This document shows positions 3,818 to 10,105 of a stretch of DNA of 64,000 bases, in pieces. The position numbers and the translations under genes are program-made. Numbering within the stretch: the first letter of the stretch is position 1; every line of letters starts with the position of its first letter. The stretch is from the NCBI RefSeq assembly GCF_024399475.1, contig NZ_CP101620.1, positions 62,001-126,000 of the forward strand, written 5' to 3'. The notes beneath the pieces are model-generated. The model searched no databases and had not been told where the DNA came from. It worked only from the letters and a program-made list of their open reading frames with translations. The DNA comes from Allocoprobacillus halotolerans. Lineage in GTDB: Bacteria > Bacillota_I > Bacilli_A > Erysipelotrichales > Coprobacillaceae.

Positions 3818-3986
3818 AACTTTTACCTCCTTTCGACAAAAGTCTATCATAACCATCAAAAAAGTTATCCTATATGACGAATTTGTACATATTTTCGCTT
3901 TAAAAATGCACAAAGCAATAACTTTTTTGATATAAAATCCTTTGTCATATAATGTAGATAGTTGTCAGACAAAGGAGGTAGAAATT

Positions 3987-4700
3987 ATGCGAATTGCAAT
4001 TTGCGACAACGAATTATTTTATGTCAAAGATATTGTAGAAAGGATTAAGAAATATGAATTTCATGACACGAAGCCCACCATTATTGATGGTTACGTTCAA
4101 GGCACCCAACTATTAGATGCATTTAGAGTTGAACCTTATGATATTGTGTTTCTTGATATTGAACTTGGTGAAGATATGAATGGAATAGAGATAGCTAAGG
4201 TAATGAAAGATATTAAACCCAATTGTATCTTTATATTCATTACTGCTTATCACTGTTATTTAACTGAATCAATGTGGTTAGGTGCAGATTTATTTATTGA
4301 TAAACCTGTTAATTCTGAATTGTTCGATATGGAACTTCAACATGCCTACCATGTTTATAAACGTTTGAATCGTACAGTTAAGTTTGCCACAACTGATGGA
4401 AAAGTCTATGTAAAAACTGACGATATCATTTATCTAGAAACAAGCTATGGAAAATATAAGTTAAAAACAACAAAACGTCATTACTATGGTAATCTCAAAA
4501 GAATTATAAAATCAAGACAACAATTACTAGATTATCATTTCTTTCCATTAAATAGGAGTATCATCATCAATTTTAAACACGTTAAATCATTTTGTTTTGA
4601 CTATGTCACAATGTCTAATGATGATATTCTTCCATTAACGAAACGTATTCGTAAAGAATTCAAAGAAAAATATTTCGATTTTGTAGACAAGGAGATGTAA
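3987..4700 (+). CDS. LytTR-family response regulator (AgrA-like)
   Basis: DNA-binding response regulator of 237 residues. The receiver domain has the acidic pair in ICDNE, phosphoacceptor D57 (VFLDIE) and the conserved lysine in IDKPVN; the LytTR domain begins near residue 135. The ATG at 3987 follows AAAGGAGG; an earlier in-frame ATG at 3942 has no such site. It is followed two bases later by the membrane part of its probable partner kinase and faces away from a secreted protein gene, an agr-like arrangement without an AgrB or peptide gene. Confidence 0.88.
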   Translation: MRIAICDNELFYVKDIVERIKKYEFHDTKPTIIDGYVQGTQLLDAFRVEPYDIVFLDIELGEDMNGIEIAKVMKDIKPNCIFIFITAYHCYLTESMWLGADLFIDKPVNSELFDMELQHAYHVYKRLNRTVKFATTDGKVYVKTDDIIYLETSYGKYKLKTTKRHYYGNLKRIIKSRQQLLDYHFFPLNRSIIINFKHVKSFCFDYVTMSNDDILPLTKRIRKEFKEKYFDFVDKEM

Positions 4701-4702
4701 TT

Positions 4703-5979
4703 ATGATTATAAACTTATTATGTAAAGCATTTATAGCGATTTTAAATATTTTATTACTTGATTTTTATTTAAAGAATATATATCCAGATATTTATAGAGA
4801 AAAAACAAAGAAAATGAATTGTATAGTATATTTCTTTCTGTTAGTCGCATTAATTATTTCATCAAATATAAAAACCAATATAATTATTTACTTATTAACA
4901 TTAATAATTATAGTCTTTATATTTTGCCAGTGGAAAATTCCAGTAATAGAAGCATCGATAAAATTGATTTTATTTTTTATCACTAAACTAATTATATACT
5001 TTTTAACAATAATAATTTTATGCTGGATTTTTGACACAAGAATGTCTTTATATCATTTTGATTTTTCTTCATCTTATTTTATTTTGTCATATTGCATTAT
5101 AAACTTTATATTATACATAGTACTGTCTTTTATCTTTAAAAAAGTAAAAACATTTATAATATAAGATTTAAAATTTTATGTATTTTTATGATTACTTACT
5201 TTTCAATAAATGTTTTTTTAAACAACCCTATTTTATTTCGAACAGCTAGTATTGCCCGTACTTATATCTTTACAGTTATCATTAGTATCGTTGCATTAAT
5301 ATATTTTGATAGAATGCAAACCAAATATGAAACTGATAAACATGCTAAAGAGGCAATGATACAAAATATGACAAAAGAAGAAGAATTTATAAAACAATTA
5401 CAGAATCAACAGTTAGAGATTAGAAAGATTAATCATAATTTGAATAACATATTAATTATATTACAAGCACATTTGAAAAATGGTGAATATGATGAAGCAA
5501 TAGAATATATTGAACAGAATTTAAAAATACATGTTAAAGCTTATCAGGATTTAACGCATACTGGTATTCCAACTCTTGATAGTATCTTAAATAATCAGAT
5601 GTATCTTATGAAAGAAAAGAATATTGAATACCATGAGGATATTACAAAAATATTGCATTTAGGTAATGTTAAAACTGATGATTTGTCTCTAGCAATAAGT
5701 TTAGCATTAGATAATGCTAGAGAAGCATGTGAAAAAGTTGATGCTCAAAGACAGATTTCTTTAAGTTTACAAAGCAAGCAAACACATGTTGTTCTTTATA
5801 TTACTAACTCTATTCCTCAAGGAAGTCATCCACATTTCCATAAAACAACTAAAGCAGATAAAATTGCTCATGGACATGGAGTGAAAAGTATTAAAGAGAT
5901 TGCCAGAAAATATCATGGAGATGTAAAATATGATATAAAAGATAATCAGGTTATTTTAAGAATTATGTTACAAAAATAA
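4703..5979 (+). CDS. AgrC-like GHKL sensor kinase, split by a frameshift
   Basis: Membrane histidine kinase partner of the preceding regulator. Frame 2 (4703-5164) gives ~150 residues with about five hydrophobic segments. The rest, readable in frame 1, gives a last membrane helix, a coiled segment, the phosphorylation-site region (KINHNLNNI), an N box (SLALDNAREAC) and a G box (HGHGVKSIKEIA). Frames meet at an A6 run (5138-5143); a seventh A gives a continuous ~425-residue kinase, the usual AgrC size. The ATG at 5188 has no ribosome site, so a separate second gene is unlikely. Confidence 0.75.
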
Positions 5980-6074: not shown

Positions 6075-6971
6075 CTATTCAAGTATCTTATAGACATCTG
6101 TTTCACTATGTATATCTGTTATATGTAATGCAAGATTGTTTAACTCTTCTTCATTACTTAATTCAATTCTCAATGTCAATTCAGGTGTGAGTTTTCCTAA
6201 TACTTTTTTAAGTTGAGCCATTAGCATTTCCATTTTACCTTCCTGTTTACCTTCTATTCTTCCTTTTTGTATCCCTGAATCTTCAATGTCTTTCCAAAAT
6301 GACCACATTGCCACGGTTCCTTCTTCTCCTTTCACTTGTTCTAAAATATCAAATCTTTCCGTAAGTATCGCTATCACCCTTGCGGCTGTCTTTGAGACTT
6401 CCATCCCTTTGAAATCTTCTTTCTCTTTTCTCCATATCTGATTAACTGTTTTGACGATATTGCGATTATCCTCATTTTTGAGTAGGTGATAGTCCAAATC
6501 CTTGATATCTACAATCTTCATCTTCCAGTCATTTGGCATCCCCTTCAAGCTTTCAGGAATATCCATTCTTTCTACCAGTGACGTGACTGCTGTCCATCTT
6601 CCTTCGCCATGAAACAATACGAGGCTGACAACTGGCATGATCTTGTAGCTCTTGTACTCCTTATCCTGCATGTTGTAGGTCAATGCATCATAGAGAAGTG
6701 TTCTTGACACCATTGTAAAATCAACCTGATCCTGTGCTTCCAATGCCAAGATAGCCTGTGAATCCTTTCCTTTCCACAACATGATGGCATCACGTCTTCT
6801 TTCCCTGGAAATATAATTGCCTACAAAGATTTCACTTGTATCCATTCTTTGAAGTTCATCAGGCTTAATGACATCTTGACCGCCATAGAGAATAGCGTTC
6901 ATCATATCAGCAAAATGATCAGGATTTCTGAAGAAATCTCTGATGACATCATCAACTTTCAAATCTTTCAT
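6075..6971 (-). CDS. Rpn-family PD-(D/E)XK nuclease / putative transposase
   Basis: 298 residues matching the Rpn (recombination-promoting nuclease) / PF04754 type: N-terminal FFRNPDHFADMMNAILYGG, then a PD-(D/E)XK-like core around RRRDAIMLW...ILALEAQDQ, and a C-terminal helical tail with QKGRIEGKQEGKMEMLM. Family members cut DNA and raise recombination; many are near-silent genomic copies. Start ATG follows AAGGAGG. Codon use looks a little more GC-rich than in the LytTR neighbours, which fits recent spread. About 250 bases without a gene follow on the right (6972-7223); nothing recognisable was seen there. Confidence 0.75.
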   Translation of the reverse strand: MKDLKVDDVIRDFFRNPDHFADMMNAILYGGQDVIKPDELQRMDTSEIFVGNYISRERRRDAIMLWKGKDSQAILALEAQDQVDFTMVSRTLLYDALTYNMQDKEYKSYKIMPVVSLVLFHGEGRWTAVTSLVERMDIPESLKGMPNDWKMKIVDIKDLDYHLLKNEDNRNIVKTVNQIWRKEKEDFKGMEVSKTAARVIAILTERFDILEQVKGEEGTVAMWSFWKDIEDSGIQKGRIEGKQEGKMEMLMAQLKKVLGKLTPELTLRIELSNEEELNNLALHITDIHSETDVYKILE

Positions 6972-7223: not shown

Positions 7224-7940
7224 TTACTTTTTCTCCTCTAAGAACTTATAAAAAATCCTTTTAAATTCTCTATAACGTTTCTTGGATATAAGCAACATAC
7301 TCCCATCTGACATATAAAGCAATACATTATCAATTTTCACAATATGTTCCATATTCACTAGAAAACTTCTTTGTATTCTTACAAATGAATAATCTAATAA
7401 TGCTTTTCTAATAGCATTGGCAGGTTTTAATGAACCATAATAAACACCTCTAGTGGTATGTATTTTATAGCTCTTATAAGCTGTTTCTAAATAAACAACT
7501 TCTGATAAACGAAAAATAATACGTCCTTGTGATGTTGGAAAAGCAAATGATTTATTCCTATATTGATAATGCTTTAAAGCTCTTTTTAATTCATATATAA
7601 AGAGTTGCTCTTTTAATGGCTTTGTTAAGTATTGAAATGCATTCACGACATAAGATTGATGAATATAACTCATATGACTTGTCATAAAAATAATCATCGT
7701 AGACATATTCTTTTCATGTATCATATGTGCTAAGTGAACGCCATTTATATCTGATAGTTCTATGTCTAAATATACCAGATCATAAGGCTGATAGGTAAAT
7801 ACAGAAAGAAATTCTTTCCCTTCATGAAATGTATCCACTTCTATATTTACATTGCCATCATATGATTGTCTAAATCTCTCTATTTTATCACACACATCTT
7901 GAAGATATAATTCTTCATCATCTACAATTGCAATTTTCAA
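7224..7940 (-). CDS. LytTR-family response regulator (second of tandem pair)
   Basis: 238-residue regulator with a complete receiver domain (VDDEE, phosphoacceptor D59 in VYLDIE, lysine in YLTKPLK) and a LytTR DNA-binding domain from about residue 135. It begins with a TTG that overlaps the stop of the upstream regulator (TTGA), with a GGGGAGGAAG site, so the two are co-translated. No kinase gene is adjacent. An imperfect dyad at 7170-7200 lies past the stop but lacks a neat T-run. Confidence 0.87.
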   Translation of the reverse strand: MKIAIVDDEELYLQDVCDKIERFRQSYDGNVNIEVDTFHEGKEFLSVFTYQPYDLVYLDIELSDINGVHLAHMIHEKNMSTMIIFMTSHMSYIHQSYVVNAFQYLTKPLKEQLFIYELKRALKHYQYRNKSFAFPTSQGRIIFRLSEVVYLETAYKSYKIHTTRGVYYGSLKPANAIRKALLDYSFVRIQRSFLVNMEHIVKIDNVLLYMSDGSMLLISKKRYREFKRIFYKFLEEKK

Positions 7941-8692
7941 TTTTCTTCCTCCCCATTCTTTCTTTTTTCTTTTTCTTCTTGTTCCTTTAAAAACTTTTCA
8001 AACAATAAATGATTTTGAAATAAAGTTTTACGACTTGTTGGAAAAACTTCCCTTGATTTTAAGATAACATTACGATCAGTTAAAAAGTCAATACATTTCA
8101 TATTTACCAAAACACTTTGATTCACTTGCATAAACCACCTTGATTTTAATACTGGTCTTAACTTATAACGATTTTTCACATGTGCCATAAAATGCTGATC
8201 ATCAACTGTCACAATTTCCAAATCATTATAATATGTTTCAAAATATTTGATTTCATCAACATTAAAAATACGTTTACGTTTTAATTCTCTAACCGGTATA
8301 ACAAATTTCACATTCTGATGTAAATACCAATCCATTAAATAATCAAAAATACTTTGAAATTGATTCGTATTAATAGGTTTTAACAAATATTCTCTTGCAT
8401 TCACTGCAAAGGCTTCTTGAATATGATAATATTTGTCGCTAATGAAAACAATTTGACAAGCACGATTGGCTTTTCTTAATTGCATCGCTGCCTCTATTCC
8501 TCGATCATTTTCAATTCTCATTTCAATAAACGCAAATTCATAACAACGAAACCTTGTACTATCCAGCATTTCTTGAATTGATGAAAAAGTATAAACATTC
8601 AATTTCATCTCTGGTTCATGAAAACATTCATAAATTTTCTTTGAAATTAAGTTTAAATAATCTAACTGATCATCACATACAGCAATATTCAT
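7937..8692 (-). CDS. LytTR-family response regulator with Glu at the phosphorylation site
   Basis: 251-residue regulator, first of a tandem pair. The receiver domain keeps the acidic pair (VCDDQ), a serine in VFISDK and the lysine in YLLKPIN, but the expected Asp is Glu57 (FAFIEMR, aligned with D59 of its partner). Glu at this site often mimics the phosphorylated state. The LytTR domain follows, and the C-terminus is a charged tail (EEKEKRKNGEEEN). It may therefore be active without a kinase, or act as a stable partner for the second regulator. Confidence 0.85.
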   Translation of the reverse strand: MNIAVCDDQLDYLNLISKKIYECFHEPEMKLNVYTFSSIQEMLDSTRFRCYEFAFIEMRIENDRGIEAAMQLRKANRACQIVFISDKYYHIQEAFAVNAREYLLKPINTNQFQSIFDYLMDWYLHQNVKFVIPVRELKRKRIFNVDEIKYFETYYNDLEIVTVDDQHFMAHVKNRYKLRPVLKSRWFMQVNQSVLVNMKCIDFLTDRNVILKSREVFPTSRKTLFQNHLLFEKFLKEQEEKEKRKNGEEEN

Positions 8693-8801: not shown

Positions 8802-8814
8802 GAAATATGTCGAA
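8802..8814 (+). promoter_or_regulatory. 13-bp motif shared with the lone-LytTR upstream region
   Basis: GAAATATGTCGAA occurs here between the divergent LytTR pair and the XRE gene, and again in inverted orientation at 10088-10100 upstream of the lone LytTR gene. A protein-binding site is inferred. Confidence 0.4.
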
Positions 8815-8902
8815 CTATGGTAACCATTGAACAATTGAAATTAGCCATAATTTCCCTAAAGCAAATCAACATAGTGTATAATAGCGATAAGGTGGTGAAA
8901 TC

Positions 8903-9142
8903 ATGAGTATTGGTCAAAGATTAAAAACATTAAGAAAAGAAGCTGGATTATCACAAAAACAAGTCGCTGAAGCATTAAAAATGTCTAAACCTATTGTCTC
9001 TCAATATGAATCTGATCAAAGAACACCTTCTGTTCCTAAACTTATTCGTTTTTCACGTTTTTATAAAGCTTCTTTAGATTATATTTGTGAAAATGTTGAA
9101 AAGAAAGACGATTTTTATGGCATCAAGGATTTAGATCAATAA
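8903..9142 (+). CDS. XRE-family transcriptional regulator
   Basis: 79-residue single-domain regulator with a Cro/C1-type helix-turn-helix: SIGQRLKTLRKEAGLSQKQVA then MSKPIVSQYESDQRTPS. ATG follows AAGGTGG. It is divergent from the tandem LytTR operon and ends at a good terminator, so it is monocistronic. The 13-bp motif at 8802 lies about 90 bases upstream. Its targets are unknown; the neighbouring LytTR operon is the first candidate. Confidence 0.85.
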   Translation: MSIGQRLKTLRKEAGLSQKQVAEALKMSKPIVSQYESDQRTPSVPKLIRFSRFYKASLDYICENVEKKDDFYGIKDLDQ

Positions 9143-9184: not shown

Positions 9185-9282
9185 ACATTCTTTTTTTGAC
9201 GAATCAGTAAAAATATTACTCATTGAAAAGCTTTTTATGTTTTTCCATCGTTTTTTCTTTTGTTATTGGTTATAATAAGCTT

Positions 9283-9487
9283 GTCTTTAAAGAACACCTA
9301 TTTATTGATGTATGAAAATGAACTCAAAATATAAAAGAAAGGGATTTTTCTCATCAGCAACTCACATCTATAAATAGAAGATATAAATAAGGTTGTGACT
9401 TAGCCTAAATGAACCTGGCTTCTTACATAATTATTTATATATGATGCATCATAAAAGGCGAAAGATTTTTATCTTTCGTTCTTTTTT
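9283..9487 (+). ncRNA. Candidate structured small RNA, ~200 nt
   Basis: A gene-free stretch with its own transcription signals. TATAAT at 9271-9276 (weak -35) precedes a region whose ends pair over a long stem: 9297-9313 with 9444-9458. An inner stem is ATATAAA (9329-9335) with TTTATAT (9434-9440). A possible H-type pseudoknot joins AGGTT (9390-9394)/AACCT (9412-9416) with AGCC (9402-9405)/GGCT (9417-9420). A clean terminator ends it. The next gene is on the opposite strand, so it cannot be an ordinary leader. Size and long stem recall 6S RNA, but I see no decisive 6S signature and no known riboswitch consensus. Confidence 0.5.
9459..9487 (+). terminator. Rho-independent terminator of the candidate small RNA
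   Basis: CGAAAGAT (9459-9466), TTTT loop, ATCTTTCG (9471-9478), then TTCTTTTTT. The T-run exists only on the plus strand, where no protein gene lies upstream for 300 bases. Confidence 0.85.
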
Positions 9488-9956
9488 ATATTTTAATCTC
9501 TTCCATTTTTAAATGGTTAACCAAAAGATCAAATTCTGGCTTATAGTGACGACTAGAAATTAAAATATCATCATTATCTAAAGTGATTCTACGACGGCTG
9601 CCACGTTGAATCTTATATGTTTTGACATGCTTAATATTAACGAGTGTCCGCACATTAATTTGATAAAAGCCATAACTTTGTACACGCTGTTTAAGATGTT
9701 CCATTTTCATACAAGAAATACGATAAACATCTTTTTCCGTATAAGCATAAATTTTATGATCAACCATTTCAAAATAGTAGATTGCTAAAATAGGAATATA
9801 ATATTTATTATGATATTCATCAAACAATTCTACTTCACCTAAATTTTCAGTAAATTGTTTTAAAAGTAATTGTGCTAATTTTTTATTTTTGGGATGATAA
9901 ACAAGTTTTAATTCATGATGATTCATATGCTCATTTTCATCATAGACAACCTTCAT
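9486..9956 (-). CDS. Lone LytTR DNA-binding domain protein
   Basis: 156-residue regulator without a receiver domain. The LytTR fold occupies roughly residues 50-150 (IPILAIYYFEMVDHKIYAY; GFYQINVRTLVNIKHVKTY; LISSRHYKPEF). The ATG at 9956 follows GGGAGGGATG; the longer reading to 10022 has no such site. Stand-alone LytTR proteins are often controlled by a partner membrane protein or by level alone; no such partner is adjacent. A pair of direct repeats and the shared 13-bp motif lie 120-150 bases upstream. Confidence 0.82.
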   Translation of the reverse strand: MKVVYDENEHMNHHELKLVYHPKNKKLAQLLLKQFTENLGEVELFDEYHNKYYIPILAIYYFEMVDHKIYAYTEKDVYRISCMKMEHLKQRVQSYGFYQINVRTLVNIKHVKTYKIQRGSRRRITLDNDDILISSRHYKPEFDLLVNHLKMEEIKI

Positions 9957-10076
9957 GTTTTCATCCCTCCCCATATAGAATATAAAATGCATTTTATAGT
10001 TAAAATACAACAACAAATCCACGAATCATCACTTGTATACAAAATCAAATGCTCATTCGCCTAAATATTGTATATT

Positions 10077-10105
10077 TTTCTACAAAATTCGACATATTTC
10101 TACAC
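10077..10105 (-). promoter_or_regulatory. Direct repeats upstream of the lone LytTR gene
   Basis: On the minus strand TGTAGAAA occurs twice, 20 bases apart, flanking the 13-bp motif GAAATATGTCGAA (10088-10100). LytTR proteins usually bind two direct repeats about two helical turns apart, so this is a candidate autoregulatory site. A plus-strand hairpin (GCCC/GGGC plus T-run, about 10109-10135) lies beside it. Confidence 0.4.

Follow-up and report, generated by a model that had tools for sequence, protein, structure and literature searches.

The putative RNA gene described here occupies positions 9283-9487 of the window, the whole stretch of 64,000 nucleotides that was analysed, which belongs to a genome of 2.93 Mb. 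Upstream of it on the same strand is the gene of an XRE-family HTH protein of 79 aa (8903-9142, + strand; Pfam HTH_3, E 1e-15), which diverges from a LytTR response regulator with Response_reg and LytTR domains (7937-8692, - strand). On the far side a further LytTR gene (9489-9974, - strand) is convergent with the RNA, which bears out the claim of an earlier note on this DNA that the next gene is antisense and that the element is hence no leader. In several genera the XRE promoter region (window 8830-8890; L006, L008, L037 and L129) has a conserved stretch that resembles TTTCCCTAAWGCAAAT and contains TTGCAA repeats; this is possibly the operator of the XRE gene itself, and was not seen before the RNA. 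Elsewhere in the window, a LytTR response regulator, a short membrane-like ORF and a GHKL sensor kinase stand together at 3942-5979, like an Agr-type system, and a YhgA-like putative transposase (Transposase_31, DUF4351) lies within the LytTR cluster at 6075-6971.

A sequence-only model (R2) finds one copy of the RNA in each of 13 of the 43 genomes of the family, in Massilimicrobiota, Stoquefichus, Longibaculum and the lineages g13 and g8. All of these members score E 2.4e-11 or better and the next match stands at 1e-3; given that R2 or R1, the latter a covariance model of the RNA core, had been trained on 12 of the 13, their own E-values are flattered and it is the gap below them that is informative. 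By BLAST, four other genomes of the genus of the window (g1, which includes the named Massilimicrobiota) match at 84-89% identity, two Stoquefichus (g6) genomes at E about 1e-24 and Longibaculum (g19) at 1.4e-9, to which R1, which finds a single copy per genome, adds the genus g13 at 4e-6. The pattern GAAAGGNATTT..YNATCAGC, taken from the core motif described below, has one site per genome in 12 genomes of the family and none in the reversed control, and the 13th copy of the RNA reads ATTGGC in this motif. The RNAs of lineage g8 have diverged, and a fourth copy there has an altered motif. Across 296 genomes sampled from the class, searched under stricter filters that weak members may escape, R1 gave no match beyond the genus. 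Four single matches to the motif pattern in the sister family are read as chance, as are those outside the family in a collection of 85k genomes, where a scripted filter, applied to the matches as a set, gave none with the conserved -10 box and 5' end adjoining. Weak R2 matches in g18 (L211 and L212), the best two below the gap, were set aside, the motif not being seen when the sequences were read. Phage and plasmid records held no match to the RNA and such an origin was rejected.

The TATAAT box of the earlier note was located at 9271-9276 (+ strand) and is invariant as a -10 box in 12 aligned members. No good -35 hexamer accompanies it and the site scan listed no sigma-70 site for the RNA promoter; given the missing -35 hexamer, the promoter may depend on an activator. 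A possible regulator site is the upstream element TTGACGAATC (9196-9205, + strand), about 65-75 bases 5' of the -10 box, which all 8 upstream regions that were aligned, representing four genera, keep as TTGMCGAAT and which was not seen at the corresponding place in lineage g8. In that lineage, a TCRACAANNATYGA-like element is found closer to the promoter, in place of TTGACGAATC. Transcription would start near G9283, with the predicted 5' end GUCUUUAAAGA (9283-9293, + strand) forming a small hairpin; the conserved TTGTCTTTAAAGA is kept with few changes at the start of the RNA in all members. The hairpin is weak in the sequence of the window itself, and its pairing is kept with different letters in g19 (GUCU-UGAG-AGAC) and g13 (GUCU-UUAA-GGAC). 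At the other end, the intrinsic terminator (9457-9487, + strand) of the earlier note was confirmed as a terminator-like site, with a stem at 9457-9480 of 10 pairs, a loop of 4 and a T tract. Terminator-like sites number 5 in the scanned 1.7 kb versus 0.3 expected, and a terminator-like hairpin also lies downstream in those homologs that were folded.

Between these ends, 9283-9487 folds at -42.4 kcal/mol versus -30.0 +/- 3.6 kcal/mol in shuffles (z -3.4), and five members of the RNA fold with z-scores of -3.3 to -6.9. The first conserved hairpin, P1, is closed by arms at 9298-9311 and 9364-9377 (both + strand), for which the evidence is covariation. In nine sequences, 13 of the 14 pairs are changed on both sides and 93.7% of cells are paired, with a covariation score of 0.798 versus 0.274 +/- 0.048 when shuffled, in an alignment that leans to the stem: the arms were aligned by hand, the loop was swapped for a spacer, one bulged base of L102 was removed and g8 was left out. 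An artefact is nevertheless disfavoured for two reasons: first, the signal is lost when the partner arm is slid by 1-3 columns, and second, many types of pair contribute. Cognate P1 arms also pair better on average than arms from other genera, and the shuffle test of P1 is weak in single members (Sto_g6b, p 0.13; g8_U2, p 0.05). Within the long loop of P1 there are two conserved segments. The patch GAAAATGAACT (9314-9324, + strand) is invariant in g1, g6 and g19 and absent from g13 and g8, and the core motif GAAAGGGATTTTTCTCATCAGCA (9337-9359, + strand; pattern GAAAGGNATTT..YNATCAGC) contains GAAAGGNAUUU..AUCAGCA, which is nearly invariant, with few changes, in all members. A mini-hairpin GGGA/UCUC within the core motif is plausible, if weakly supported, and its register varies among lineages.

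The second hairpin, P2 (9381-9440, + strand; -15.9 kcal/mol, z -4.1), has an inner AGCC/GGCU stem and an 11-base apical loop, UAAAUGAACCU (9406-9416). Five pairs of inner P2 are changed on both sides among seven sequences, AGCC/GGCU becoming AUUC/GAAU in g13. The apical loop is common to g1, g6 and g19, is partly kept in g13 and is not found in g8, where a hairpin with a different loop replaces P2. In the g8 RNAs (L050, L053, L095 and L191) the loop of this second hairpin holds a self-complementary GCATGC, unlike the other genera. Between P2 and the terminator lies a perfect 14-base palindrome, TATGATGCATCATA (9440-9453, + strand), and a palindrome of 8-14 bases is present in 13 of 13 members: TGATGCATCA in g1, AAATCGATTT or GAATCGATTC in g6, g19 and g13 (the program scored a longer one, TTGTCAATTGACAA, in g19) and ACGCGCGT in g8.

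Given the conserved -10 box, the terminator, two stems with compensated changes, a single copy per genome and the lack of a conserved ORF, the locus is probably the gene of an orphan regulatory sRNA of about 200 nt from a family that is narrow in distribution and absent from Rfam, as read from sequence comparison. A promoter-like box, a terminator, conserved structure and no conserved ORF are also the marks of an independently transcribed intergenic sRNA. The earlier note's orphan structured RNA is upheld, having a promoter-like box and a terminator of its own as well as compensated stems, and so is its claim that no Rfam consensus applies: a search of Rfam 15 at gathering score gave 0 matches in the window and 0 in 7 homologous loci. 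Matches to L20-leader and snoRNA-like families were weak, far under their gathering scores, and are put down to chance. Other orphan RNA candidates (PMC8040213, PMC11109978) are likewise based on conserved intergenic stems with covariation; the terms searched for the present genera are absent from the main texts of both papers.

We infer that the gene is transcribed and, beyond its action in trans, how it would work. Action in trans is the most likely mode for this RNA. The 5' hairpin and the terminator would stabilise it, P1 would hold out the long A-rich loop with GAAAGGNAUUU..AUCAGCA as the working surface, and P2 would show a second conserved loop in most genera. These loops may pair with mRNAs in trans over short stretches of bases, a proposal to which a little less than even probability is given. 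A search of five genomes for a 15-base sequence complementary to the motif, with at most one mismatch, returned the RNA gene itself and three extra sites, all of them within or across unrelated reading frames, and the complement of the P2 loop had many matches, of which one was followed up, with no convincing target. Given this outcome, what remains is either short seeds or a protein partner. Somewhat more tentatively, the core motif and the P2 loop may bind a protein, the RNA sequestering or assembling it, possibly as a scaffold, instead of pairing with mRNAs. The sequence of the core motif is conserved around the possible mini-hairpin, the five genomes show no recurrent long complementary site, and P2 keeps its internal loop and its 11-base loop although its stem varies, all of which would suit such a role. 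However, the seeds of a base-pairing sRNA can be too short for the complement search that was used.

The palindrome raises the possibility that the RNA self-dimerises, the palindrome of one copy pairing with the same site in a second. The place of the palindrome is kept while its letters drift through three unrelated cores (ATGCAT, ATCGAT and CGCGCG), its flanks show partly joint changes, most monomers are predicted to leave its centre unpaired and a self-duplex is computed at -15 to -20 kcal/mol. Against shuffled linkers, p was 0.0002 to 0.044 per sequence, in a test that used single-base shuffles and linker ends set by hand on a feature seen before testing, and in which members within one genus are not independent, so that there are about three independent sequences. 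Dimerisation is conceivable but rather unlikely. It is also possible that the palindrome is a protein site at the level of DNA, or a simple small hairpin.

Action in trans has to be set against the position of the RNA, which closely follows the XRE gene and converges with the LytTR gene at 9489-9974. From there it could be a cis-acting element, either a 3' UTR that extends the XRE gene or an RNA antisense to this LytTR gene. The order of LytTR regulator, XRE gene and RNA recurs in the loci read (the window and one each from further g1, g6, g19 and g13), a LytTR-like gene adjoining the XRE gene was read in at least one genome of each of five genera, and the XRE gene adjoins the RNA, within about 400 bases, in all nine members outside g8. 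However, a cis-acting element is very improbable for three reasons: first, the sequence as read shows that a separate hairpin and T tract follow the XRE gene ahead of the RNA. Second, the gene on the far side varies among genera, being LytTR in g1 and nucleotidyltransferase-like in those loci of g6, g19 and g13 that were read. Third, the RNA of g8 is away from the XRE gene: the LytTR-XRE pair of this lineage is without the RNA, which sits elsewhere, in L009 next to a cell-wall hydrolase-like gene. XRE orthologs of at least 77% identity are found in just those 13 genomes that carry the RNA, and g7 has a weaker ortholog with no RNA found there. This co-occurrence was discarded as functional evidence, given that two changes of the RNA suffice on an RsmH tree of 30 genomes and a single origin is possible, so that plain common descent can explain it.

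The structure drawn in the earlier note, in which 9297-9313/9444-9458 closes an RNA that is 6S-like or pseudoknotted, fares worse still and is extremely improbable. Its closing stem can be drawn in the sequence of the window (-13.6 kcal/mol, shuffle p 0.06), at an energy that equals that of P1 (-13.0 kcal/mol), but in the 11 other members tested it is no better than chance (p 0.18-0.93). The one-sided 15-base internal loop of its inner stem falls outside the conserved fold. The H-type pseudoknot at 9390-9420 needed AGGTT (about 9391-9395) to pair with AACCT, and AGGTT is not conserved, the same position in relatives reading AGATT, ATATT, GAATT, ATGTT, TTGTT or AAGTT; these bases belong instead to the conserved P2 hairpin. 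Compensatory changes were thus found, as the check by covariation had called for, in P1 and P2, while the stems first drawn are not kept in relatives. The likeness to 6S RNA (RF00013) extends to the size of about 200 nt and to an own promoter and terminator, whereas 6S RNA is one long interrupted hairpin and the present RNA has P1 and P2 as neighbouring, separate hairpins; the conserved fold offers no single long hairpin with a central bulge that mimics an open promoter, and neither the window nor the homologs reach the gathering threshold of RF00013. The resemblance fails and 6S identity is rejected, since the same genome has a separate 6S gene elsewhere (C1:2469611-2469771, 50.1 bits). A small protein-coding gene has negligible probability: the window does hold an ATG-started ORF of 21 codons (9312-9377, 21 aa), but no ribosome-binding site was seen for it and it is not kept in other members, L086 reading ATG AAA ATG AAC TCA AAA ATA TAA.

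The trans-acting RNA favoured here may be under the control of a neighbouring regulator. Of the earlier note's placement of the RNA in a LytTR quorum cluster, the adjoining LytTR genes stand, while the regulatory link, and with it a link to quorum sensing, rests on neighbourhood, given that direct-repeat LytTR boxes of AgrA and VirR/RgaR type upstream of the 13 members were at best no better than in shuffles and that the g8 RNA is away from the cluster. A separate candidate, TTCGACATATTTC (8802-8814 and 10088-10100, before two LytTR genes of the window), was dropped, its looser pattern being no commoner than chance. VR-RNA of Clostridium perfringens is under VirR and RNAIII of Staphylococcus aureus is under AgrA. 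SpoZ of Clostridioides difficile is a regulatory RNA activated by RgaR (PMC10602386). As in these systems, an intergenic regulatory RNA of a low-GC Gram-positive bacterium would lie close to LytTR-type regulators or be under their control, but it is without the upstream direct repeats of VirR or AgrA type, and a sequence relation to SpoZ, VR-RNA and RNAIII, judged through Rfam alone, gave no match. By analogy only, SpoZ under RgaR (PMC10602386) is the nearest published situation.

In summary, the analysis contributes a well-supported RNA family, not present in Rfam, from gut Firmicutes, a group in which regulatory RNAs have hardly been studied. It also provides a corrected structure for the family, together with named strains in which the RNA can be studied. 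Should the palindrome prove to be a dimerisation site, the family would further illustrate how the self-pairing of a bacterial sRNA can be conserved despite sequence drift.
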